Origin: a virus
Length of the DNA: 27,972 nucleotides
IMG/VR virus record: IMGVR_UViG_3300020162_000344
Span: 1 to 27,972 of that record
Reading direction: 5' to 3' (one strand)
Shown here: positions 2,364 through 19,682 of the stretch, piece by piece
How positions within the stretch are numbered: position 1 is the first letter of the stretch
Layout: every line of letters starts with the position of its first letter
Notes under the pieces: generated by a model
Told to the model about the DNA's origin: nothing
The model's input: only the letters and a program-made list of their open reading frames with translations
Databases searched by the model: none
Position numbers and translations under genes: made by a program

Positions 2364-4229
2364 ATGTTAAATAACATATCAAACTTTTTTAGTCTTATCA
2401 CCGGAAGAAGAGTAAAGAAAACTCTTGCTCCTAATGATATGATTGCTATTGGTGTAAGAAACCCAGTAACTCAGTCTGACTTCCAACCGGCAGCTATCTT
2501 TTTTAAAGATCTAGAAGCACAACTTGGAGGTGGTGGTGCAACACCAACATTACAAACTGTAGTTAATGCAGGAAATAGTATTACTAACTTTGGTGGTATA
2601 GGTACTGCATCTATTAGCTCAACAAATTTTGTAAATAAAAGACAATTATTCTTAAATGATAATGGATATCCTACTATCAGAATTGTTGATAATCTAAATG
2701 CAGCAAATAATCTTCAGATTGATATTGATACTTTAACATTAGATGGAGTATCATACAACTGGTCAAGTATTGTAAATCAATTACCTTCTTGGTTAGAATA
2801 TAATGCTACTGATAAAACTATTTGGAATAATGGTCAAAGTAATCAGCAAACTAATACATCATATGGGGAATCTGCATTAAGATCTAATACATCAGGTCAA
2901 CAAAATGTAGCAATAGGTTTTAATGTATTACAATTTAATACTGGAGGTATTCAAAATACAGGAATAGGTTGTAATGCTATGTATAGTAACCTTAATGGTA
3001 ACTATAATACGGGTATTGGTAGAGGAGCATTATTTAGTAATAGTACAGGTTCTTTTAATACAGCATTAGGAGATGCAGCATTGCTTAATAGTAATGCTGC
3101 TGATAATACAGCTGTTGGTTATAGTTCACTAGTTAATAATACAACCGGTGCTAGAAATACAGCTATAGGTTCATTTGCATTAGGTAATACTACTACAGGT
3201 ATTAATAACACAGCACTAGGTGTGGATGCTCTTAGAAACAACACAATAGGTACTGAAAATGTAGCTATTAGTTATGAAGCATTAAGATCTAATACATTTG
3301 GATTTAGTAATATAGCAATTGGTACACAAGCACTTAGAGCTAATACAACCGGACTACAAAATATTGCAATTGGTACAAATGCATTAACTAGTAGTATTAC
3401 AGCAGATAACAATATTGCAATCGGAAGAGATAGTTTAAGAAATAACAGTTCTGGAACTCAAAATATTGGAATAGGTATCAATGCTTTGGTAACTAATACT
3501 ACAGGTGTTAATAATATTGCAATCGGTATATCTGCTTTGACCAATAATACAACAGGTTTTCAAAATGTTGCACTTGGTGTATCTGCTTTATCCAGTAATA
3601 GTTCTGGTATAAATAATACAGCAGTTGGTCAATCTGCATTACAAAACAATAGTACTGCAAGCAATAATACAGCTGTTGGAGTTCAAGGTTTAGCTAACAA
3701 TACAACAGGTTTTAGTAATACTGCTATTGGTTATCAAGCATCATATAATAATACTACAGCAACTGAAAATGTAGCAGTTGGAAGTGAGGCTTTAAGACTA
3801 AATTCAATAGGTAATGCAAATACAGCTATTGGTTGGAGAGCTTTACAAAATAATACTAATGCAGGTGGTAATACAGCTATAGGAAGAGGAGCTATGGCAA
3901 GTACTAGTACTGGTAGTAGCAACACTGCTGTTGGAACTGACGTATTATTTACAAATACAACCGGATTTAATAATGTAGCAATTGGAAATAGTGCTTTACT
4001 TGCAAATAGTACAGGATCTAGTAATACTGCTGTAGGTGTAAGCACATCATCTGGAAATTTTAATGGTAGTACAATTTTAGGATTTGGAGCTACAGCAACT
4101 GCAGCTAATCAATTTGTAGTAGGATCATCAAGTACTAATGCAGGCGCTGTTACAGCAGAAGTAAACACTTCTTCTAATGTTTGGAATGTAGTAATTAACG
4201 GAGTAGCAAGAAAAATTTTATTAGCATAA
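2364..4229 (+). CDS. Fibre protein with YadA-head-like 17-residue repeats
   Basis: This 621-residue protein has three parts. Residues 1-160 hold an N-terminal module (for example LAPNDMIAIGVRNP and FFKDLEAQLGGGG, a glycine hinge) likely to attach to the particle. Residues about 162-568 hold about 24 repeats of 17 residues, consensus NTAIGxxALxNNTTGxx. This is the pattern of left-handed parallel beta-roll heads in trimeric autotransporter adhesins (Hep_Hag/YadA head repeats). Residues 569-621 form a cap with NQFVVGSS and end in INGVARKILLA. The protein is probably trimeric, with the repeats forming a rigid shaft. No intramolecular chaperone of the endosialidase type follows. Because crAss-like phages carry fibres on head or tail, its exact place in the particle is open. 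Confidence 0.85.
   Translation: MLNNISNFFSLITGRRVKKTLAPNDMIAIGVRNPVTQSDFQPAAIFFKDLEAQLGGGGATPTLQTVVNAGNSITNFGGIGTASISSTNFVNKRQLFLNDNGYPTIRIVDNLNAANNLQIDIDTLTLDGVSYNWSSIVNQLPSWLEYNATDKTIWNNGQSNQQTNTSYGESALRSNTSGQQNVAIGFNVLQFNTGGIQNTGIGCNAMYSNLNGNYNTGIGRGALFSNSTGSFNTALGDAALLNSNAADNTAVGYSSLVNNTTGARNTAIGSFALGNTTTGINNTALGVDALRNNTIGTENVAISYEALRSNTFGFSNIAIGTQALRANTTGLQNIAIGTNALTSSITADNNIAIGRDSLRNNSSGTQNIGIGINALVTNTTGVNNIAIGISALTNNTTGFQNVALGVSALSSNSSGINNTAVGQSALQNNSTASNNTAVGVQGLANNTTGFSNTAIGYQASYNNTTATENVAVGSEALRLNSIGNANTAIGWRALQNNTNAGGNTAIGRGAMASTSTGSSNTAVGTDVLFTNTTGFNNVAIGNSALLANSTGSSNTAVGVSTSSGNFNGSTILGFGATATAANQFVVGSSSTNAGAVTAEVNTSSNVWNVVINGVARKILLA
2847..4067 (+). repeat. About 24 tandem 51-bp coding repeats (17-residue beta-roll units)
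   Basis: Units of 51 bases encode NTAIG-type repeats in one open frame. Nearly all units are exactly 17 codons; one unit starting at DNTAVG has 16. The DNA units are diverged (synonymous and conservative changes), so the array is old and kept by protein selection, not recently expanded. Confidence 0.85.
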
Positions 4230-8011: not shown

Positions 8012-8557
8012 ATGAAAACAATATTTACAAAATTAGTAACATCAGCAGGGTATAGAGACATGAATCATTTTGTAGACAGTGCATTCCATCCACAGATGGC
8101 TGGAACTTGTGCTGGGTTTAGTGCTTTTTTTGCTGGAGTAGCTTATTATTTTAATGCCGTATTTGGTATTGTATTACCAGTAGGTATTGGTATTATACTC
8201 TTGTTTGCTCTTGAGTTCTATACAGGTCTTAAAGCTTCTAGAAAAGAAGGTAGAAAGTTTGATTCAGAATTGTTTGGTAAAGGTTGGTTTAAACTGTTTG
8301 TTTACATGTTGATGATTGGAATATCACATGCAATGTCAATTAATATAGAAATAAAACCTATCTTTGGAATGAAATTTAATGTTTATGAGTGGTTACATTA
8401 CGGGTTTTATAATTATATAATTATAAATTTGTTCTGGTCAAACTTAGAAAATTTTAAAAGATTGGGTTGGACAGAACATATTGCCTTATTAAAGCAACTA
8501 TCTAAATATGTAAAGGACGAACCAATAAAACCAAAAAATGAAGAAGAAAACTCTTAG
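8012..8557 (+). CDS. Holin-like membrane protein
   Basis: This 181-residue protein has about four hydrophobic segments (residues about 30-50, 52-72, 92-110 and 128-142). A short basic loop lies between the second and third (YTGLKASRKEGRKFDSE), and the tail is charged (KDEPIKPKNEEE). The segment LEFYTGLKASRKEG followed by KGWFKLFVYML is the pattern of the phage_holin_4 (toxin-secretion/phage lysis holin) family. Holins form inner-membrane lesions that let endolysins reach the wall. It is the first gene of the lysis cassette, three bases after the fibre gene. A later start at the Met at 8060 is possible. Confidence 0.7.
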   Translation: MKTIFTKLVTSAGYRDMNHFVDSAFHPQMAGTCAGFSAFFAGVAYYFNAVFGIVLPVGIGIILLFALEFYTGLKASRKEGRKFDSELFGKGWFKLFVYMLMIGISHAMSINIEIKPIFGMKFNVYEWLHYGFYNYIIINLFWSNLENFKRLGWTEHIALLKQLSKYVKDEPIKPKNEEENS

Positions 8558-8777
8558 AGAAAGGTGGAAAGCTAAAACACCTAAATTCTGGAAGAGAGTC
8601 CAAAGATGGGCTATCATTACAGGAACAGTAGCAGGAATTGTTATTGCAGCACCGGTAGCATTACCAGCTGCAGTTATTACAACTGCAACTTACTTAGCAA
8701 CAGTTAGTGCTACTATAGCAGCAACTTCCCAGTTAACTGTTGAAGATAATAAAGAAGAAAAAATTGTAAATCCCTAA
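8538..8777 (+). CDS. Small membrane protein of the lysis cassette
   Basis: This 79-residue protein overlaps the holin-like gene by 20 bases. Its N-terminal 23 residues are strongly basic (KKKTLRERWKAK, FWKRVQRW). One long or two short alanine/valine-rich hydrophobic segments follow at about residues 25-64, and the tail is acidic. The charge pattern predicts the basic end in the cytoplasm. It could be a holin partner, antiholin or spanin-like piece; no lipobox is present, so an outer-membrane lipoprotein is unlikely. Confidence 0.6.
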   Translation: MKKKTLRERWKAKTPKFWKRVQRWAIITGTVAGIVIAAPVALPAAVITTATYLATVSATIAATSQLTVEDNKEEKIVNP

Positions 8778-8788
8778 ATAAAATAAAA

Positions 8789-9088
8789 ATGGCAAAGAAA
8801 GAAGCAAAAATCAAAGACATTGAGGTTGAAGTAAAAACCAAAAAAGTCACTGCTAAAGTAAAAAAAGAAGGTAAGAATGTTGATGTAGTAGTTGACACTC
8901 CTAAAGTTGATGTAGAAGTTCATGCAACTGAAGAAAAAAAAGAATTTAAATTAGATAGTGAGAAGCTAGATGTTAATGTAGTTAAAACTGAAGAAGGTAC
9001 TACTGTAACAGTTGATGCTCAAAATCCTTTATTAAAAATAGCAGGTAAAATACTATCTAAAGTTTGGATTAAAAAATTCAAGAAATAA
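8789..9088 (+). CDS. Charged beta-repeat protein with cationic amphipathic tail
   Basis: This 99-residue protein has two parts. Residues 1-78 alternate V/I with charged residues (for example IEVEVKTKKVTAKVKK, DVVVDTPKVDVEV, KLDVNVV), suggesting an elongated beta repeat. Residues about 80-99 (PLLKIAGKILSKVWIKKFKK) form a likely amphipathic helix with lysines at regular four-residue spacing and a hydrophobic L/I/W/F face. That tail looks like a cationic membrane-active peptide. It has no signal peptide or cysteine. It sits in the lysis cassette between membrane proteins. A role in outer-membrane disruption is possible but unproven; the beta part could instead be a virion component. Confidence 0.65.
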   Translation: MAKKEAKIKDIEVEVKTKKVTAKVKKEGKNVDVVVDTPKVDVEVHATEEKKEFKLDSEKLDVNVVKTEEGTTVTVDAQNPLLKIAGKILSKVWIKKFKK

Positions 9089-9097
9089 TAACTTGTA

Positions 9098-10213
9098 GTG
9101 AAAAATCTCCCAAAAGAAGAGTTACTAAGTAGACTAGAAGCCATTAATAGAAGTAATGCTATTATCTACTTTGACCTTAGTGGTATTATACTAGGGGTTA
9201 ATGATATTTTTTTGGAGGCAATGGGTTATGGTAAAGGCAACCATGATGATATCATTGGTAAACATCATAGCATCTTTGTATGTGATGATTACTCAAGATC
9301 ACTTGAATATGAGAAGTTTTGGGACATCTTAAGAAGTGGTAAGTACTATACCGGTGAGTTTGAAAGAAGAAGAAAAGATGGAAGTCTTATTAATCTTCAA
9401 GCAACTTATAATCCTATTTTAAATGAGGAGGGTAAGATCACCAAAGTAATGAAGATTGCTACTGACATTAGTGCAATTGTCAATAGTAAGAAACAAATAG
9501 ATGCTATTAACAGAAGCACAGCTCTTATTGGTTTTAATATTGATGGTTTTATAACAGAAGTTAATTCTATATTCTTAGAAACTATGGGTTATAAAGCCAA
9601 TGAACAAAGTAAAGTCATTGGTAAGCATCATAGTGTTTTTGTTAGTTATGAGTATTCAAAGTCTGATGAGTATACTAAGTTCTGGGAAAGTTTAAGAAAA
9701 GGTAAGTACTTTGATGGAATATTTGAAAGAAGAAAAGTAGACGGCTCTGCTATTTATTTACAAGCATCTTATAATCCTGTAACGGACAGTAAAGGAAATA
9801 TCACAGATGTAGTTAAAATTGCAACTGATATTACTGAAGCTGTTACTAATAAGGCAAAAATAGAAGACCTTACAAAGAACTTGCAAATTGAACTTGCTAA
9901 TTCTCAAAAACTTAAAAATGCAATTGAGATAGAAAAAGATGCAGCTTTAAATGACTTAGATGTCATGATGAAGAAAAGTCAAAGTGAGTTGATAAAAATA
10001 ATTGTCAAAGTTGCGTTGTCTGTTATAGTAGGAGTAGGAGCTGTGACAACTGTGTTGTACTGGATGGCTATTGTAACAAATCAAGATACTCAGATCATTG
10101 GATCAACATGGAGTAACATGTTCAGTGTATTATTAACAAATGCTTTCTCTATAGTTGGTACAATCATGGGTATCAAGTATGCTACTCAAGAAGGCAGTAA
10201 AGAAAAAAAATAA
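9098..10213 (+). CDS. Tandem PAS sensor fused to coiled coil and membrane hairpin
   Basis: This 371-residue protein has PAS domain 1 at about residues 12-126 and PAS domain 2 at about 134-247. They are clear duplicates of each other (AINRSNAIIYFDLSGIILGV against AINRSTALIGFNIDGFITEV; IIGKHHSIFV against VIGKHHSVFV; ATYNPIL against ASYNPVT; KIATDI in both). This is the PAS type found in chemotaxis and biofilm-dispersal receptors such as BdlA. A coiled coil follows (about 250-297), then hydrophobic segments at about 299-326 and 338-361 and a short basic tail. No kinase, cyclase or methyl-accepting output domain is present. There is no signal peptide, so the PAS part should be cytoplasmic. The start is GTG at 9098, nine bases after the previous stop; the first downstream ATG would cut into PAS 1. 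It lies between holin-like genes and upstream of the lysozyme, which suggests a signal-responsive membrane or lysis protein. The ligand is unknown. Confidence 0.85.
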   Translation: MKNLPKEELLSRLEAINRSNAIIYFDLSGIILGVNDIFLEAMGYGKGNHDDIIGKHHSIFVCDDYSRSLEYEKFWDILRSGKYYTGEFERRRKDGSLINLQATYNPILNEEGKITKVMKIATDISAIVNSKKQIDAINRSTALIGFNIDGFITEVNSIFLETMGYKANEQSKVIGKHHSVFVSYEYSKSDEYTKFWESLRKGKYFDGIFERRKVDGSAIYLQASYNPVTDSKGNITDVVKIATDITEAVTNKAKIEDLTKNLQIELANSQKLKNAIEIEKDAALNDLDVMMKKSQSELIKIIVKVALSVIVGVGAVTTVLYWMAIVTNQDTQIIGSTWSNMFSVLLTNAFSIVGTIMGIKYATQEGSKEKK

Positions 10214-10217
10214 AAAT

Positions 10218-10493
10218 ATGAAAAAGATTTTTAAAGAGCTTGTCTCAGATAACAACCAAATAAATGAGCAATCATTTGTAGGAGTAGTAGCATTTTTTGC
10301 TATGGTATTTATTTTAATAGTTGATGTAGTTACAGGTATTTGGGGTAAAGAACTTGTCATAAAAGAATTTATCTTTGATGGCTTTATGATCATTACTCTT
10401 GGAGCATTTGGAATTACTACAGCAGGTAGAATCATGTCTTTAAACAAGAAGACAAAAGAAGAAGAAAGTACTAACGAAGAAGAAGTAGGTTAA
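10218..10493 (+). CDS. Second holin-like protein (two predicted membrane helices)
   Basis: This 91-residue protein has a short charged N-terminus (KKIFKELVSDNNQINE), hydrophobic helices at about residues 19-42 and 52-72, and a highly charged tail (NKKTKEEESTNEEE). Size, two-helix hairpin and charged tail fit class II holins. It ends one base before the lysozyme start, the classic holin-endolysin pairing. I chose the ATG at 10218 because an in-frame upstream start would overlap the PAS gene by about 60 bases, and the ATG follows its stop by four bases. Confidence 0.7.
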   Translation: MKKIFKELVSDNNQINEQSFVGVVAFFAMVFILIVDVVTGIWGKELVIKEFIFDGFMIITLGAFGITTAGRIMSLNKKTKEEESTNEEEVG

Positions 10494-10494
10494 T

Positions 10495-10953
10495 ATGAAA
10501 ATTACAAAAACAGGGAAAGCAGGAATTGAGATGATTAAAACATTTGAAGGATTCAGAGCGGCTCCTTACAAATGTTCTGCAGGTGTTCCTACAATTGGAT
10601 ACGGAGCTACTTTTTATCCGGGTGGTAAAAAGGTAACAATGACAGATGCAGCTATAACAGAAGAACAAGCTGTTGAACTATTAGCAAACATGCTTGTAAG
10701 CTTTGAGAAATATGTAGATAGCTACTGTGTAGATACTATTACACAGAATCAATTTGATGCATTAGTATCATTTGCTTACAACTTGGGACCAGCAAACTTA
10801 AAAGCTTCTACTCTACTTAAAAAAGTAAATGCTAATCCAAATGATGAGTCAATCAAATTAGAATTCCTAAAGTGGGTTAAAGCTGGAGGTAAAACATTAA
10901 AAGGTCTTGTGAGAAGAAGAGAGGCAGAAGCAGACTTATACTTTAAAAAATAA
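10495..10953 (+). CDS. GH24 lysozyme (T4-type endolysin)
   Basis: This 152-residue muramidase would cleave the N-acetylmuramic acid to N-acetylglucosamine bond of peptidoglycan. The active-site block is visible: KTFEGFRAAPY with catalytic Glu18, then CSAGVPTIGYGAT with Thr33. The position equal to Asp20 of T4 lysozyme (nine residues after the Glu) is Cys27, a known variant within GH24. Further family marks are QNQFDALVSFAYNLG at about residues 82-96 and LVRRREAEADLY near the C-terminus. There is no signal sequence, so it needs a holin for export. It sits directly after a holin-like gene and before a second wall-active enzyme. Confidence 0.92.
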   Translation: MKITKTGKAGIEMIKTFEGFRAAPYKCSAGVPTIGYGATFYPGGKKVTMTDAAITEEQAVELLANMLVSFEKYVDSYCVDTITQNQFDALVSFAYNLGPANLKASTLLKKVNANPNDESIKLEFLKWVKAGGKTLKGLVRRREAEADLYFKK

Positions 10954-10964
10954 ATAGAATAGTT

Positions 10965-11774
10965 ATGGTACTTAAAAAAGGAGACAACAATGATACTGTT
11001 AAGAAAATTCAAGCAGTATTAGGTGTAGAACAAATAGGAAACTTTGGACCAAAAACAGAAGCTGCTGTTATTGAGTTTCAAAAGAAACATGGACTTACTG
11101 CAGATGGAGTTGTTGGACCTGCTACATTAGCTAAGATGGGTATTACTGTAGACAGTAATCCTGTAGTTTCTAAACCAGCAGTTGCTACTAAATATACTGC
11201 AGCTCAAGTAAAAACTGCTGTTGCATCAAAAGGACATAAGTGGTTTGAAGGTAAAGATTTAATGTTAAATATTGTAGGAGTACGTAACTCTTCTACAGGT
11301 CAAAAAGTAACTAACTTATTTGATGATCATTTAACTTTAACTTATACAGTTAATGGTGTAGAACATTTTCATAGTTGGCCAGCAACCACAGATCCTGGAA
11401 CTAAAGGAGTTATGCAGTTTGGTAACAAAGCCGGTGTAGCTAGATTAGTTGAGGGTCAGTATATCAATTCTCACATCATGAGACTTCATGCAGGTAAGTA
11501 TGAGGCACTAGGACAAAACAAACCAGTTAAAGTTTTCCGTGATCCAAACAAAGATATGGTATATGATGAGAAGTCAATACAAGAAGGATTGTTTGGAATT
11601 AACATTCACAAAGCTGGAGCAGACTCAACCTTTGTAGAGAACTGGTCTGAAGGATGTCAGGTATTTAAAAAATCTGCAGACTTTGAAGAGTTTATGGCAA
11701 TCTGCCGTAGAGCAAAAGCTGTACATGGAAACAACTTTACATATACATTAATTGAATCAAATGATATTGTATGA
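10965..11774 (+). CDS. Peptidoglycan-binding, L,D-transpeptidase-like wall enzyme
   Basis: Residues 4-58 form a PG_binding_1 domain (KGDNNDTVKKIQAVLG, NFGPKTEAAVIEFQKKHGL, DGVVGPATLAKMG). After a linker, residues about 75-269 form a beta-rich domain with GINIHKAG (His215) and a WSEGCQVF motif (Cys231). This spacing resembles the catalytic His and Cys of YkuD-type L,D-transpeptidases (HX14-17[ST]HGCxN), with Glu where that family usually has His. It probably acts on the peptide part of peptidoglycan or helps anchor lysis to the wall; hydrolysis against transpeptidation cannot be told from sequence. No signal peptide. It follows the GH24 lysozyme by 11 bases and belongs to the same lysis unit. 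Confidence 0.75.
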   Translation: MVLKKGDNNDTVKKIQAVLGVEQIGNFGPKTEAAVIEFQKKHGLTADGVVGPATLAKMGITVDSNPVVSKPAVATKYTAAQVKTAVASKGHKWFEGKDLMLNIVGVRNSSTGQKVTNLFDDHLTLTYTVNGVEHFHSWPATTDPGTKGVMQFGNKAGVARLVEGQYINSHIMRLHAGKYEALGQNKPVKVFRDPNKDMVYDEKSIQEGLFGINIHKAGADSTFVENWSEGCQVFKKSADFEEFMAICRRAKAVHGNNFTYTLIESNDIV

Positions 11775-14203: not shown

Positions 14204-14719
14204 ATGTTTGCAAAACTCTTTGATGTTCAAAATGGTAAAGTGATACCTACAGAACACTGTTATACATTAAAAGCTTTAAAAGATGTTATGGATGAATATC
14301 CAGAAGACTATTTAAAAGTTTACTTGTATTTGTTTTATATGTGCTGTCCTAATCCAGATATGAATCCTTTTTTCTTTGTCCCGGAGCAGGATAAAGAATA
14401 CATCATACTAAAAGAGATTGAAGCAGATTTCTCTACAGAGGATGACACTATCTTTGCAGCATTGAAGTTTTGTGAAAGAATGTATGAAACACCTACATCC
14501 AGAGCATATAAGGGTATTGCAACCATGTTAGATAGATTAGGTAGATATATGGAAAATACTCCTATTACACATGGACGGGATGGTAACTTTAATTCTTTAA
14601 TTGCTGCAGCCAAAAACTATGATGCAATTAGAGCTTCATTTAAGGGAGCCTATAAAGATTTACAAGAAGAACAATCCAGCAAGGTGCGCGGAGGACAAGG
14701 ACTAGCATATGATATGTAA
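14204..14719 (+). CDS. Unknown protein directly upstream of the large terminase
   Basis: This 171-residue protein appears mostly helical, with an aromatic and cysteine-containing stretch (YLYLFYMCCPNPDMNPFFFV), an acidic segment, and a C-terminal half with FNSLIAAAKNYDAIRASFKGA. Its stop overlaps the start of the terminase large subunit by one base (TAATG), so it is tightly coupled to it. The position is the usual one for a small terminase subunit. I see no clear helix-turn-helix, so that identity is only a suggestion. Confidence 0.75.
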   Translation: MFAKLFDVQNGKVIPTEHCYTLKALKDVMDEYPEDYLKVYLYLFYMCCPNPDMNPFFFVPEQDKEYIILKEIEADFSTEDDTIFAALKFCERMYETPTSRAYKGIATMLDRLGRYMENTPITHGRDGNFNSLIAAAKNYDAIRASFKGAYKDLQEEQSSKVRGGQGLAYDM

Positions 14720-16926
14720 TGAGTGAAATTTATCAAGACATACCAACCTATGACAATGGAGAATGGACAATTACAAGTTTTGAATCTAGAGAAGAATTCA
14801 AACAGTACATCCTTAACAGAATTTTCAAAATACCTGGAGAGTACAACTTCAACGAAACAACCAATGAAGTATTTATTTCAGAGTCAGTCAAGTTTAAAAA
14901 AGATGGAATATATTGTGCATCTCCCTTTAAATCCAAAGACTACATAAACTATTGGGATGACCAAAAGCTTAAATGCAGAAAAGGTATAATTGTTAAGGAT
15001 AAAGATCACGAATGGTTTGTATGTAGAGAGTATTACATGTGGTTAAACTTTCTTCCAATCTTTGATAAAGAACAACAGAAGTTTGACTTTGCTAAGATCC
15101 GAGATGCTCAGTATCATCTTGCTTTATATGAGTTACTTGCAGAGTTAAGTTACAAGCATTCAGCTATTCTTAAGAAAAGGCAGATTGCTTCTTCTTATTT
15201 TCACATGGGTAAGTTTATCAATCAGCAATGGTTTGAAGCAGGGGTTACTCTTAAAATTGGAGCTAGTCTTAAAGATTATATCAATGAGAAAGGTTCTTGG
15301 AAATTCTTACAAGAATATGCTGCCTTTCTAAATGAACATACTGCATGGTATAGACCAATGTCACCAGATAAGGTCATGATGTGGCAACAGAAGATTGAGG
15401 TAAGAAAAGGAGACAGAAAAAATGAAGTAGGTCTTAAAGGTACCATACAAGGTATGTCATTTGAGAAGGATCCAACAAATGGTGTAGGGGGTCCGGTTAA
15501 ATACTTCTTTCATGAAGAGGCAGGGATTGCTCCTAAGATGGATCAGACCTATGAGTATATGAGACCAGCAATGAGATCTGGTTTAATTACTACAGGGATG
15601 TTTATAGCTGCAGGATCTGTGGGTGACTTAGGTCAATGCTTACCTCTAAAAGATATGATCCTGAATCCTACAGCAAAAGATATTTATGCTGTAGAAACAG
15701 ACTTGATAGATGATAAAGGTACTACAGGTCTCTCAGGTTTATTTATTCCAGAGCAATGGTCAATGCCGCCATACATAGATGATTATGGTAATTCACTTGT
15801 AGAAGAAGCATTAGTAGCATTAAATGAGCAGTTTAAAAAATGGAAAGATGAACTTGCTCCAGAAGAGTACCAGTTAAGAATCTCTCAGCACCCTAGAAAC
15901 ATTCATGAAGCTTTTGCAAACAGAAGTGTGTCTGTTTTCCCTACACATTTACTTGCTGCACAACAAAGAAGAATTGAAGATAAAGATTATGGTTTTGAAT
16001 ACTTAGATATCTCTACAGATGAGAATGGAAAACCTTCTGTAAAAACAAGTAATAAGAGACCTATAATGGAATTCCCTATAAATAAGAAAACTGAAGATAA
16101 AACAGGATGTCTTGTTGTTTGGGAAAGACCTATAGATAATCCATCATTTGGCACTTACTATGCTTCTATTGACCCCGTAGGTGAAGGTAAAACAACTACT
16201 TCTGAATCATTATGTTCTATCTATATAATGAAAGCACCTGTTGAAGTAACAAAAGTTACCAGTGGGGAAACAGAAACTTATATAGAACAAGGTAAGATTG
16301 TAGCAGCATGGTGCGGTAGATATGATGATATTAATAAAACTCATCAAATGCTAGAGTTAATTATTGAATGGTATAATGCCTGGGCCCTGGTTGAGAATAA
16401 CATCTCTTACTTTATACAGTATATGATATCTAGAAGAAAACAAAGATATCTAGTACCTAAGAGTCAGATACTATTCTTAAAAGATCTTAGTGCTAATGGT
16501 AATGTATATCAAGAGTATGGATGGAAAAACACCGGTACATTATTTAAGGCACACATGTTAAGTTATGCTATTGAATACACTAAAGAAGAATTAGATATTG
16601 AAACAAAACCTGATGGGACAATTGTAAGAACCAAATATGGTATTGAAAGGATTCCTGATCCAATGTTAATTAGGGAAATGCAAGAATATTCAGATGGAGT
16701 CAACGTGGATAGGCTAGTATCTTTTGCAGCTCTTGTATCTTTTATGAAAATTCAGGAATCTAACAGAGGTTATTTAAGAAGACATATTACTGATGATAGC
16801 ACCAAAAACTTGCAAAAGTCAGAAAATTTGTTTAAATTAAATAAGAGTCCCTTTAGACACATGGGAAATAATGAGAAGAACACAATGAGCGGGTTTAGAA
16901 AATCTGCTTTCAAAAATTTTAAATAA
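14719..16926 (+). CDS. terL: Terminase large subunit
   Basis: This 735-residue protein is the DNA-packaging motor ATPase and nuclease. A degenerate Walker A is at about residues 152-160 (KKRQIASSY), the Walker B region is KYFFHEEAG (261-269, glutamates 266 and 267), and the coupling motif is FIAAGS (295-300). The nuclease half has ASIDPVGEGK (Asp485), LVENN (Glu559) and NVDRLVSF (Asp664), an RNase H-like acidic triad. The length and the large N-terminal region before the ATPase fit crAss-like terminases. The Walker A lacks the usual GK(T/S) and resembles the divergent KxRxxGxS form, with Ala where Gly is expected. It is followed by the portal gene after five bases. Confidence 0.9.
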   Translation: MSEIYQDIPTYDNGEWTITSFESREEFKQYILNRIFKIPGEYNFNETTNEVFISESVKFKKDGIYCASPFKSKDYINYWDDQKLKCRKGIIVKDKDHEWFVCREYYMWLNFLPIFDKEQQKFDFAKIRDAQYHLALYELLAELSYKHSAILKKRQIASSYFHMGKFINQQWFEAGVTLKIGASLKDYINEKGSWKFLQEYAAFLNEHTAWYRPMSPDKVMMWQQKIEVRKGDRKNEVGLKGTIQGMSFEKDPTNGVGGPVKYFFHEEAGIAPKMDQTYEYMRPAMRSGLITTGMFIAAGSVGDLGQCLPLKDMILNPTAKDIYAVETDLIDDKGTTGLSGLFIPEQWSMPPYIDDYGNSLVEEALVALNEQFKKWKDELAPEEYQLRISQHPRNIHEAFANRSVSVFPTHLLAAQQRRIEDKDYGFEYLDISTDENGKPSVKTSNKRPIMEFPINKKTEDKTGCLVVWERPIDNPSFGTYYASIDPVGEGKTTTSESLCSIYIMKAPVEVTKVTSGETETYIEQGKIVAAWCGRYDDINKTHQMLELIIEWYNAWALVENNISYFIQYMISRRKQRYLVPKSQILFLKDLSANGNVYQEYGWKNTGTLFKAHMLSYAIEYTKEELDIETKPDGTIVRTKYGIERIPDPMLIREMQEYSDGVNVDRLVSFAALVSFMKIQESNRGYLRRHITDDSTKNLQKSENLFKLNKSPFRHMGNNEKNTMSGFRKSAFKNFK

Positions 16927-16931
16927 GAGCT

Positions 16932-19682
16932 ATGCAGGTATATAACGCAATGCAATTAAAGAAGGGAGCCAAAGTTGAACATAACCGTTTAGGTAGTGTT
17001 ACTCAACCTCTTCAATTTCTTTCTAAGAAAGAAAAAGATGAACAGTGGGCTGCATGGAATTTGGATTGGTTAGAATGGCAAGGATTAAAACAAATCAGAA
17101 GAAATGCCCGCAGGTTGATGAAGAACTACAAACTTGCAAAAGGCATCATTGATAGAACAGATTATATTATTGAAGAGAACAATGAAATGAGAGACATTGT
17201 TGAAGCACTTACAAAAGAGGATGCTTCAGCATTAGAGTTAAAGTTCTATCCAATTATTCCAAATGTTATTAATGTTCTAGTAGCTGAATTTGCAAAAAGA
17301 TCTACTAAGTTAAATTACAGAGCTGTTGATGACATTTCATACAATGAAATGCTTGAGCAAAAAAGAATGATGATTGAGGAAACCTTGATGGCAGATGCTC
17401 AAACAAAAATAATTTCTGCTCTTATAGAACAAGGGATGGATCCAAATTCACCTGAAGCTCAAGAACAACTAGCACCAGAAAAACTTAAGTCACTTCCTGA
17501 AATTGAAAAGTTTTTCCAAAAAGATTATAGATCTGTTATTGAACAGTGGGCTTCTCACCAACATAAAGTAGATGTTGAAAGATTCAAAATGAATGAGTTA
17601 GAAGAAAGAGGTTTCAGAGACATGCTCATTACAGACAGAGAGTTTTGGCATTTCAGAATGATGGAAGATGATTATGATGTAGAATTATGGAATCCTGTAA
17701 TTACATTCTATCATAAATCTCCAGAGGTAAGATATATATCTCAAGGAAACTGGGTAGGTAAAACAGACATGTTTACTCCATCTGATGTAATTGACAAGTA
17801 TGGTTACTTGATGGATGAAGATCAGTTAGCTGCTTTAGAAGCAATTTATCCTATCAGATCTGCAGCATATAATATTGGAGGTTTACAAAATGATGGGACA
17901 TTCTATGATGCAACTAAATCTCATGACTGGAATACTAACATGCCTTCATTAGCATACAGACAGTACACGTCATTTATGGGAGGTAATGTATTAGATGGTT
18001 CAGATATCATTACACAAATACTTGCCGAGGGAGAAGACTATTATGATCAAGGAACAGCTTATCTACTTAGGGTAACTACAGCTTATTGGAAGTCTCAGAA
18101 GAAAGTGGGTCATCTAACTAAAATATCAGAGACCGGTGAAGTTACTACAGAAATTATAAGTGAAGATTATTCAGTAACAGATAAACCAATTTACGATACT
18201 AGGTTATTTAAAAATAAAACCAAGGATAATCTTATCTATGGTGAACATGTTGATTGGATCTGGATTAATGAAGTATGGGGTGGTGTTAAGATTGGACCAA
18301 ACATTCCTTCATTTTGGGGTATGAATAACCCTGGTGGATTTACTCCTATCTATATTGGAGTAGATAAACCAAAGATTGGATCATTAAGATTCCAATTTAA
18401 AGGTGATCAAAGTTTGTATGGATGTAAACTTCCAGTAGAAGGATCAGTGTTCTCTGATAGAAATACTAGATCTACAGCCTTACTTGACTTAATGAAACCA
18501 TACCAGATTGGATATAACATAGTAAATAACCAAATTGCAGATATCCTCGTAGATGAACTAGGAACAATCATTATGCTTGATCAGAATACTTTACCTCGTC
18601 ACTCATTAGGAGAAGACTGGGGGAAAGGTAATTTAGCTAAAGCATATGTGGCAATGAAGAATTTCCAGATGCTTCCTCTAGATACATCTATCACAAATAC
18701 AGAGAATGCATTAAACTTCCAACACTTCCAAAAACTAGATTTATCTCAGACAGAGAGATTAATGTCAAGAATACAATTGGCAAATCACTTTAAGCAACAG
18801 GCTTATGAAGTTATAGGGGTAAACCCTCAAAGGATGGGGCAGCAGTTATCTCAAATGACAGCTACTGGAGTTGAACAAGCTACAGCAGCATCATATGCTC
18901 AAACTGAAGTGTTCTTTATTCAACACTGTGATTATCTAATGCCTAGAGTACATCAGATGAGAACTGATCTTGCTCAGTACTATCACTCTACTAAACCTTC
19001 TACTAGGCTTACATACATTACAGAGGCAGATGAGAAAGTTACATTCCAGGTGGATGGTACTGATCTTCTAATGAGGGATCTCAATATTTTCTGTAGTACT
19101 AATGCAAACCATAGGGCAGTTCTAGAACAGTTAAAACAAATGGCTATTCAGAATAATACTACTGGAGCTTCTATATATGATCTTGGTAAAGTTGTTCAGT
19201 CAGATTCAATATCTGAGATCAATACTGTTCTTAAAATGTCTGAGCAGAGAAATCAAGAGCAGAAACAGCAAGAAATGCAACAGCAGCAGCAAATGCAGAC
19301 TGAACAATTACAATCTCAAGAGAAACAAAAACAAATGGAAATTGATGCTGCTTCTCAAAGAGATGATAAGATGATTCAGAAAGATATCACAGTTGCTGAA
19401 ATTAGAGCAGCTGGTTATGGTTCTATGGCTGATGTTAATCAAAACCAAGAGTCTGACTTTAAAGATGCCATGAAAGAAATCCGGGAGACTGAACAGTATC
19501 AAGGACAAATGGATGTACAAAGACAGAAGCAAAGTGATGATATGGTGAAGCATTCACAAAAGATGAATATGGAACAACAGAAGCTACAAGTACAAGAAGA
19601 CATAGCAAATAAACAGTTAGAAATTGCTAGAGTCAACAAAAACAAGTATGATTCTGGATCATCAAACAAAAAGAAAAAATAG
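16932..19682 (+). CDS. Portal protein
   Basis: This 916-residue protein is the size and place of crAss-like portals (following the large terminase). The N-terminal part has WAAWNLDWLEWQGLKQIRRN and FYPIIPNVINVLVAEFAKRS, which I associate with this portal family. The middle contains many aromatic residues and SLGEDWGKGNL. A helical region after about residue 700 (NTENALNFQHFQKLDLSQTE) would be the stem and crown part. The last about 140 residues are a Q/K-rich coiled coil (QEQKQQEMQQQQQMQ) with a lysine tail (NKKKK). Portals form the dodecameric ring through which DNA enters. The Q-rich extension may form a barrel reaching into the head. Confidence 0.85.
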   Translation: MQVYNAMQLKKGAKVEHNRLGSVTQPLQFLSKKEKDEQWAAWNLDWLEWQGLKQIRRNARRLMKNYKLAKGIIDRTDYIIEENNEMRDIVEALTKEDASALELKFYPIIPNVINVLVAEFAKRSTKLNYRAVDDISYNEMLEQKRMMIEETLMADAQTKIISALIEQGMDPNSPEAQEQLAPEKLKSLPEIEKFFQKDYRSVIEQWASHQHKVDVERFKMNELEERGFRDMLITDREFWHFRMMEDDYDVELWNPVITFYHKSPEVRYISQGNWVGKTDMFTPSDVIDKYGYLMDEDQLAALEAIYPIRSAAYNIGGLQNDGTFYDATKSHDWNTNMPSLAYRQYTSFMGGNVLDGSDIITQILAEGEDYYDQGTAYLLRVTTAYWKSQKKVGHLTKISETGEVTTEIISEDYSVTDKPIYDTRLFKNKTKDNLIYGEHVDWIWINEVWGGVKIGPNIPSFWGMNNPGGFTPIYIGVDKPKIGSLRFQFKGDQSLYGCKLPVEGSVFSDRNTRSTALLDLMKPYQIGYNIVNNQIADILVDELGTIIMLDQNTLPRHSLGEDWGKGNLAKAYVAMKNFQMLPLDTSITNTENALNFQHFQKLDLSQTERLMSRIQLANHFKQQAYEVIGVNPQRMGQQLSQMTATGVEQATAASYAQTEVFFIQHCDYLMPRVHQMRTDLAQYYHSTKPSTRLTYITEADEKVTFQVDGTDLLMRDLNIFCSTNANHRAVLEQLKQMAIQNNTTGASIYDLGKVVQSDSISEINTVLKMSEQRNQEQKQQEMQQQQQMQTEQLQSQEKQKQMEIDAASQRDDKMIQKDITVAEIRAAGYGSMADVNQNQESDFKDAMKEIRETEQYQGQMDVQRQKQSDDMVKHSQKMNMEQQKLQVQEDIANKQLEIARVNKNKYDSGSSNKKKK

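Follow-up and report, generated by a model that had tools for sequence, protein, structure and literature searches.

A PAS sensor joined to a nearly invariant membrane hairpin in phage lysis cassettes: a possible device for signal-controlled lysis timing

Introduction

The timing of phage lysis is usually explained by holin accumulation, and the one signal studied in depth is superinfection, in T4 and comparable phages. Class II holins and pinholins (e.g. S21) have two transmembrane (TM) helices, a small-residue face and a position in the lysis cassette. In T4 (antiholins RI/RIII with holin T) and ICP1 (ArrA with TeaA), membrane or soluble phage proteins make lysis time signal-dependent (PMC8385771, PMC7182436, PMC11413866), and lysis inhibition places the holin under a signal-dependent control that is sensitive to proton motive force (PMC7182436, PMC8385771). 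In bacterial hosts, LytSR with LrgAB likewise ties a kinase and a regulator to a holin-like function, with LytSR controlling lrgAB expression (PMC3507848). Among sensor proteins, Aer, MmoS and NifL all bind FAD in PAS domains; a Trp on helix F is the main determinant and His or Asn makes further contacts, the second contact being His in AerC and Aer, and Asn in NifL and Aer (PMC10468136).

Here we describe a gene at positions 9098–10213 of a 27,972-nucleotide viral DNA (IMG/VR record IMGVR_UViG_3300020162_000344), the whole of which is hereafter called the window. Its product combines a PAS sensor with a membrane hairpin inside a lysis cassette. By analogy, the nearest working counterpart is T4/ICP1 lysis inhibition, with different proteins: we see no sequence relation between the T4/ICP1 proteins and the sensor-hairpin proteins. 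Moreover, T4 RI, an antiholin of the periplasm, is believed to detect the DNA of superinfecting phages, whereas the inputs here are cytoplasmic, i.e. flavin-type PAS domains or, in sister phages, a kinase–receiver pair. Unlike LytSR, the phage receiver carries no DNA-binding domain and is encoded beside its presumed membrane target. We found no description of sensor-hairpin lysis genes in open-access papers, in agreement with an earlier note on this DNA that knew of no sensor-holin fusion of this kind.

The lysis cassette and the architecture of the PAS gene

The cassette surrounding the PAS gene contains the following genes:

8012–8557, plus strand: holin-like membrane protein (PF05105 Phage_holin_4_1, 9.7e-9; weak NCBIfam holin_1 match)
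8538–8777, plus strand: small hydrophobic protein, kept in the cassettes of related phages (cluster 9, 19 loci)
8789–9088, plus strand: charged 99-aa protein, conserved beside 8538–8777 (cluster 12, 18 loci)
9098–10213, plus strand: PAS-PAS-coiled coil-membrane hairpin gene, 371 aa, GTG start, at least 172 relatives
10218–10493, plus strand: small two-TM protein (cluster 1, 46 loci), the most frequent neighbour of the hairpin gene
10495–10953, plus strand: GH24 lysozyme, i.e. endolysin (PF00959 Phage_lysozyme, 7.6e-43; phrog_7)
10965–11774, plus strand: PG_binding_1 and phrog_3000 domains (Pfam, PHROG), probable second wall enzyme

Pfam matches of the neighbours place the PAS gene between a holin-like gene and a GH24 lysozyme, which bears out its location in a lysis cassette as read in the earlier note. 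For the two-TM protein, the ORF called mechanically starts at 10155 and the ATG lies at 10218. The successive gaps downstream of the PAS gene are only 4, 1 and 11 nt, so these genes form one packed operon.

Three other observations concern the neighbouring proteins. The pair directly upstream of the PAS gene (8538–8777 and 8789–9088) is conserved in 18–19 loci and has no family match. In the 10965–11774 protein, the Pfam match is limited to the binding part, while the phrog_3000 end (motif GINIH...SEGCQVF) recalls L,D-transpeptidase-like enzymes; its presence across loci is independent of the GH24 gene. The 2364–4229 protein has repeated N-N-T-T-G-x-x-N-x-A-I-G units and matches virion structural and tail spike PHROGs.

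The window has 34% GC, with a terminase gene at 14719–16926 and a portal gene at 16932–19682; Rfam and tRNA scans of its whole length returned nothing. Its terminase shares 25–27% identity with the terminases of crAss-like and Flavobacterium phages, which makes a host among the Bacteroidota likely. The many phages that carry the sensor-hairpin gene are probably Bacteroidota phages.

Within the PAS gene, we distinguish the following parts:

9131–9475, plus strand: PAS domain 1, residues 12–126 (Pfam; AlphaFold2 helix 69–79), with Trp75 on helix F and His57
9497–9838, plus strand: PAS domain 2, residues 134–247 (Pfam, AlphaFold2), with Trp196 and His178
9833–9991, plus strand: coiled coil, residues 246–298, continuous with TM helix 1 (AlphaFold2 helix 246–327)
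9992–10078, plus strand: TM helix 1 (TM1), residues about 299–327 (hydropathy peak 298–316; AlphaFold2)
10088–10186, plus strand: invariant turn and TM helix 2 (TM2), residues 331–363, identical in all 80 listed loci

The Pfam models PAS_3 (4.6e-24), PAS_9 and PAS each match two stretches of the product, the NCBIfam model sensory_box matches twice, and hydropathy places the TM segments at residues 298–316 and 341–359. The AlphaFold2 model, a single chain built from an alignment of 19 relatives (mean pLDDT 82), contains PAS1 (about 20–124) and PAS2 (about 141–245), and the latter runs into a single continuous helix (246–327, coiled coil and TM1), a short turn and TM2 (332–364); in the hairpin part of these single-chain models, pLDDT is just 70–77. 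Pfam and AlphaFold2 reveal no kinase, GGDEF, EAL or MCP domain after the PAS part, and the MCP signalling domain of a BdlA-like chemoreceptor is likewise absent, leaving only the coiled coil and the hairpin. The earlier note was therefore correct in reading two PAS domains, a coiled coil and a C-terminal two-helix hairpin at these positions, and in finding no known output domain after them.

Conservation of the membrane hairpin

Full-length relatives of the gene are present in at least 172 viral contigs of IMG/VR, and 80 listed loci among them (82–100% full-length identity) form the basis of all counts out of 80 given here. A second alignment search of viral contigs gave the same close relatives among its best 80 matches. 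The median dS is about 0.85, and dN/dS, taken along the entire gene, about 0.08. Together with the number of relatives, the latter value indicates that the ORF is not a chance one.

The hairpin is the most conserved part of the protein, its end more so than the PAS domains. While the 33 residues 331–363 are identical in all 80 loci, the underlying DNA occurs in 52 versions, and third-position entropy there is the highest in the gene. Because the protein is fixed while the DNA varies freely, selection acts on the protein, and recent copying does not account for the identity. A DNA-level element behind the invariant stretch is rejected, as third positions vary more there than elsewhere.

More distant forms were gathered by scanning viral contigs with a degenerate DNA pattern of the hairpin. 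In all forms compared, TM1 drifts among hydrophobic residues, whereas W338, S339, N340 and most of TM2 are fixed; since the pattern itself fixes part of TM2, the unbiased evidence for conservation is that of the 80 listed loci and of positions outside the pattern. The small or polar residues of TM2 (S339, N340, S343, T347, S351, G354 and G358) fall on a single face of the helix (P = 0.0013 compared with random placement), the pattern that a packing interface would give.

No holin or antiholin profile of Pfam, PHROG or NCBIfam matches the hairpin above cut-off (best phrog_11161, E 0.22; PF23809, E 0.02, is also below cut-off). A profile of unknown function, phrog_1544, matches it weakly at the C-terminus (0.0019), a similarity that may be TM-driven. 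Like a holin, the protein has at least one TM helix and is encoded in a lysis cassette; as for an antiholin, a separate holin candidate is encoded alongside, i.e. the PF05105 gene at 8012–8557 in the window and, in 44 of 46 loci, another small TM protein encoded within 3 kb on the same strand. PF05105 holin-like genes also occur separately in many cassettes.

Occurrence beside wall enzymes

Among the loci, wall enzymes of four kinds (i.e. GH24, M15, GH19 and PG_binding/phrog_3000) and several small membrane proteins are variably present, and the distant flanks change as well, while the PAS gene is constant. We quantified the linkage with Pfam models (GH19, M15_3 and GH24) on 40 larger records, independently of our own gene clusters. 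A match above cut-off is present in 30 records, and in 27 of these the distance from the hairpin gene to the nearest such enzyme is no more than 4 kb, where random placement would give 4.8 records (nominal P = 3.5e-21, which overstates independence because some of the records are related). In the remaining three, the recognised wall enzyme is about 9–10 kb away. Whole contigs of about 100–160 kb also typically have a wall enzyme adjoining the hairpin gene. Two divergent kinase–receiver–hairpin operons (G033 and G034; loci L172 and L173, on contigs of 105 and 126 kb) have no recognisable wall enzyme beside the hairpin gene. Overall, membership of the lysis cassette, as claimed at first, is upheld, and homologues are not found mainly away from lysis genes. 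Some hairpin loci are flanked by genes for glycosyltransferase or ribonucleotide reductase.

Each of the 40 larger records has exactly one hairpin gene; a second, free hairpin in PAS phages is therefore rejected. Among 50,697 INPHARED records of cultured phages, there is neither a full-length nor a hairpin match. Alignments of the hairpin gave no match in bacterial genomes, and the sole one obtained later, among 84,980 bacterial and archaeal genomes, is a MAG contig (L277, CAJQGZ010000002.1) with kinase, receiver and hairpin genes in the order of the sister operons described below, plus a PhoH-like gene; it is probably phage DNA that was binned with a bacterium. The best match to the PAS domains in the phage collection, MT836939.1 (L143), encodes a two-PAS MCP chemoreceptor and GGDEF/EAL-type proteins. 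Despite its GenBank label (Bacteriophage sp.), we rejected it as a phage relative, because it looks like a bacterial chromosome and contains an MCP.

Alternative input domains

The coiled coil and hairpin of the distant forms are mostly about 45–70% identical, and they are fused to three kinds of head: (i) two PAS domains (about 371 aa in total); (ii) one PAS domain (245–262 aa); or (iii) a short head of helices, about 70 residues long, with a coiled coil of variable length behind it (181–228 aa in total). The third form has no Pfam match above cut-off, and the fold of its head could not be placed.

A receiver gene (about 145 aa) lies directly upstream in 50 of the 57 short-head loci; the other seven are on contigs with less than 750 nt upstream. 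Receiver and hairpin genes overlap by 1 or 4 nt in 34 of the 50 pairs, and a membrane histidine kinase gene, visible in 43 loci, is likewise packed against the receiver gene. The order in these sister operons is thus kinase, single-domain response regulator and hairpin. Pfam identifies HATPase_c in the kinase, with or without PAS and GAF, and Response_reg (PF00072) in the receiver. The acidic pair, the phospho-acceptor Asp, the Ser and the Lys are invariant in 50 receiver sequences, and the kinases retain their H-box and ATP-binding (N/G box) motifs, with RHDMHSGIN and DNGxG present in nearly every sequence of sufficient length.

Among the 40 larger records, the receiver is present in all ten of the kinase type and in none of the 30 of the PAS type. 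In a tree built from the coiled-coil and hairpin region, one branch (100/99 support) separates the kinase type from the PAS type, and the second PAS domain has been repeatedly gained or lost within the PAS side. The AlphaFold2 model of the kinase-type protein likewise has an unbroken helix into TM1. Judged from these sequences, coiled coil and hairpin together make up an independent module, and its occurrence under interchangeable heads suggests that lysis cassettes feed two alternative inputs into a single membrane output. The first reading, which had missed the sister form, is extended by it: there the PAS domains give way to a histidine kinase and a response regulator. A separate kinase output, named in that reading as evidence against the proposal, is not what the sister form shows, as its kinase lies upstream as an input and is no alternative output.

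Putative cofactor of the PAS domains

The solved sequences closest to the PAS domains are those of E. coli Aer, MmoS and NifL, and the best fold match of the AlphaFold2 model (Foldseek) is the tandem PAS of MmoS, so that the model and Pfam agree on a PAS fold. W75 and W196, which align with the Trp of Aer, NifL and MmoS, are present in all 80 listed loci, as are H57 and H178; by reading of the alignment, Thr or Ser occupies the position of the Asn contact. The phage protein thus resembles the FAD-binding redox PAS sensors Aer, AerC, NifL and MmoS, and BdlA-type tandem PAS proteins, in PAS fold, helix F Trp and His, i.e. two of the three FAD contacts (PMC10468136). However, those proteins end in MCP, kinase or NifA-binding parts, whereas the phage protein ends in a membrane hairpin. 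Because Trp and His are kept and the nearest relatives are FAD proteins, FAD-based sensing of redox or energy state is our best guess for the PAS domains.

A model of signal-controlled lysis and its alternatives

We propose that the hairpin belongs to a modular device by which a signal controls lysis timing, and that it acts on a separate holin rather than being one. The two cytoplasmic FAD-type PAS domains would sense redox or energy state, and their change would travel via the continuous coiled-coil helix into TM1, altering the packing or oligomerization of a two-helix hairpin with a nearly invariant TM2. The state of the hairpin would restrain or trigger the opening of the membrane, with the cassette's separate small membrane proteins as the most likely intermediaries, and the opening would decide when the neighbouring endolysins get to the wall. 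In sister phages, the membrane histidine kinase and single-domain response regulator would feed the same hairpin instead of PAS domains. The sequences themselves show the architecture, the place in the cassette, the conservation, the interchangeability of the inputs, the intact residues of kinase and receiver, and the FAD-type residues; on balance we consider the whole scheme probable. Cofactor, signal direction, effect on lysis and the action of the hairpin on a holin, which is more likely than its being the holin, are the parts that we infer. A stricter version seems to us evenly balanced between acceptance and doubt: true signal transduction, through a kinase–receiver relay or flavin PAS domains, would time lysis by protein contact without transcription, acting on one hairpin that gates holin action and so tying lysis to the energetic state of the host.

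The earlier note had taken the hairpin itself for the output, as a holin or antiholin. That it is more than an anchor stands, since it is the most strongly conserved part and is retained under unrelated input domains. Calling it the holin exceeds the evidence, because it matches no holin profile above cut-off and nearly every locus encodes a further small membrane protein, often of PF05105; the same small TM proteins and separate PF05105 genes lead us to favour a regulator of a separate holin.

A hairpin that is itself the pore former, i.e. a sensor-gated holin or pinholin opening on a PAS or receiver switch, is the least unlikely alternative, albeit an unlikely one. The two TM helices of the hairpin, its N and C ends, both presumed to be cytoplasmic, and the invariant small/polar face of TM2 fit this reading. 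The two helices, the small-residue face and the cassette position recall class II holins. The weak sub-threshold likenesses to phrog_11161 and PF23809 also fit; in addition, at two loci (L053 and L062) the hairpin gene is flanked directly by a GH19 enzyme gene on one side and the gene of a GAF-like membrane protein on the other, and neither PF05105 nor a TM2small homologue is among its neighbours. Unlike class II holins, however, the hairpin has a large cytoplasmic sensor attached and other holin-like genes alongside, and a 371-aa holin of this build would be unusual.

We regard as distinctly improbable that the protein is a host-takeover or superinfection-exclusion sensor travelling by chance with the lysis cassette, its hairpin being an anchor or a binder of host membrane proteins. 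The operons of G033 and G034, and the glycosyltransferase or ribonucleotide reductase genes beside some loci, would agree with such a role, but the statistical link to wall enzymes is strong across differing phage contexts and holds for both input forms. Finally, it is hardly credible that a fragment of a host chemoreceptor or kinase was captured and serves as a decoy of host signalling: although the PAS domains closely resemble their counterparts in bacterial chemoreceptors (the two-PAS MCP of MT836939 being the nearest match in the phage collection), the protein has no MCP or kinase output and the hairpin occurs in no bacterial genome searched except one phage-like MAG contig, and the conservation pattern (low dN/dS along the whole length, and a hairpin end more conserved than the PAS domains) largely contradicts it.

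If a redox sensor or a full two-component relay is indeed wired to a membrane hairpin beside the endolysin in this widespread family, phages would gauge host physiology to pick the moment of lysis, which would provide a directly testable handle, and the response regulator would have an unusual output, a membrane hairpin instead of DNA or an enzyme. The presence of a sensor and a near-unchanging hairpin beside a cell-bursting enzyme in many uncultured phages suggests that host state is read before the burst is timed.

A second membrane-anchored protein

Near the hairpin gene or a wall enzyme, three loci (L053 7138–7740, L062 7138–7740 and L056 3520–4140) encode a membrane-anchored protein of about 200 aa, with relatives in L155, L163 and L249. 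It has no match above the Pfam cut-off, no PDB relative and a weak match to phrog_38864 (1.2e-6). Its invariant motif, QFHNGGHFYPTGKSI, appears GAF-like by eye, and the protein may be another sensor-membrane fusion of lysis cassettes.
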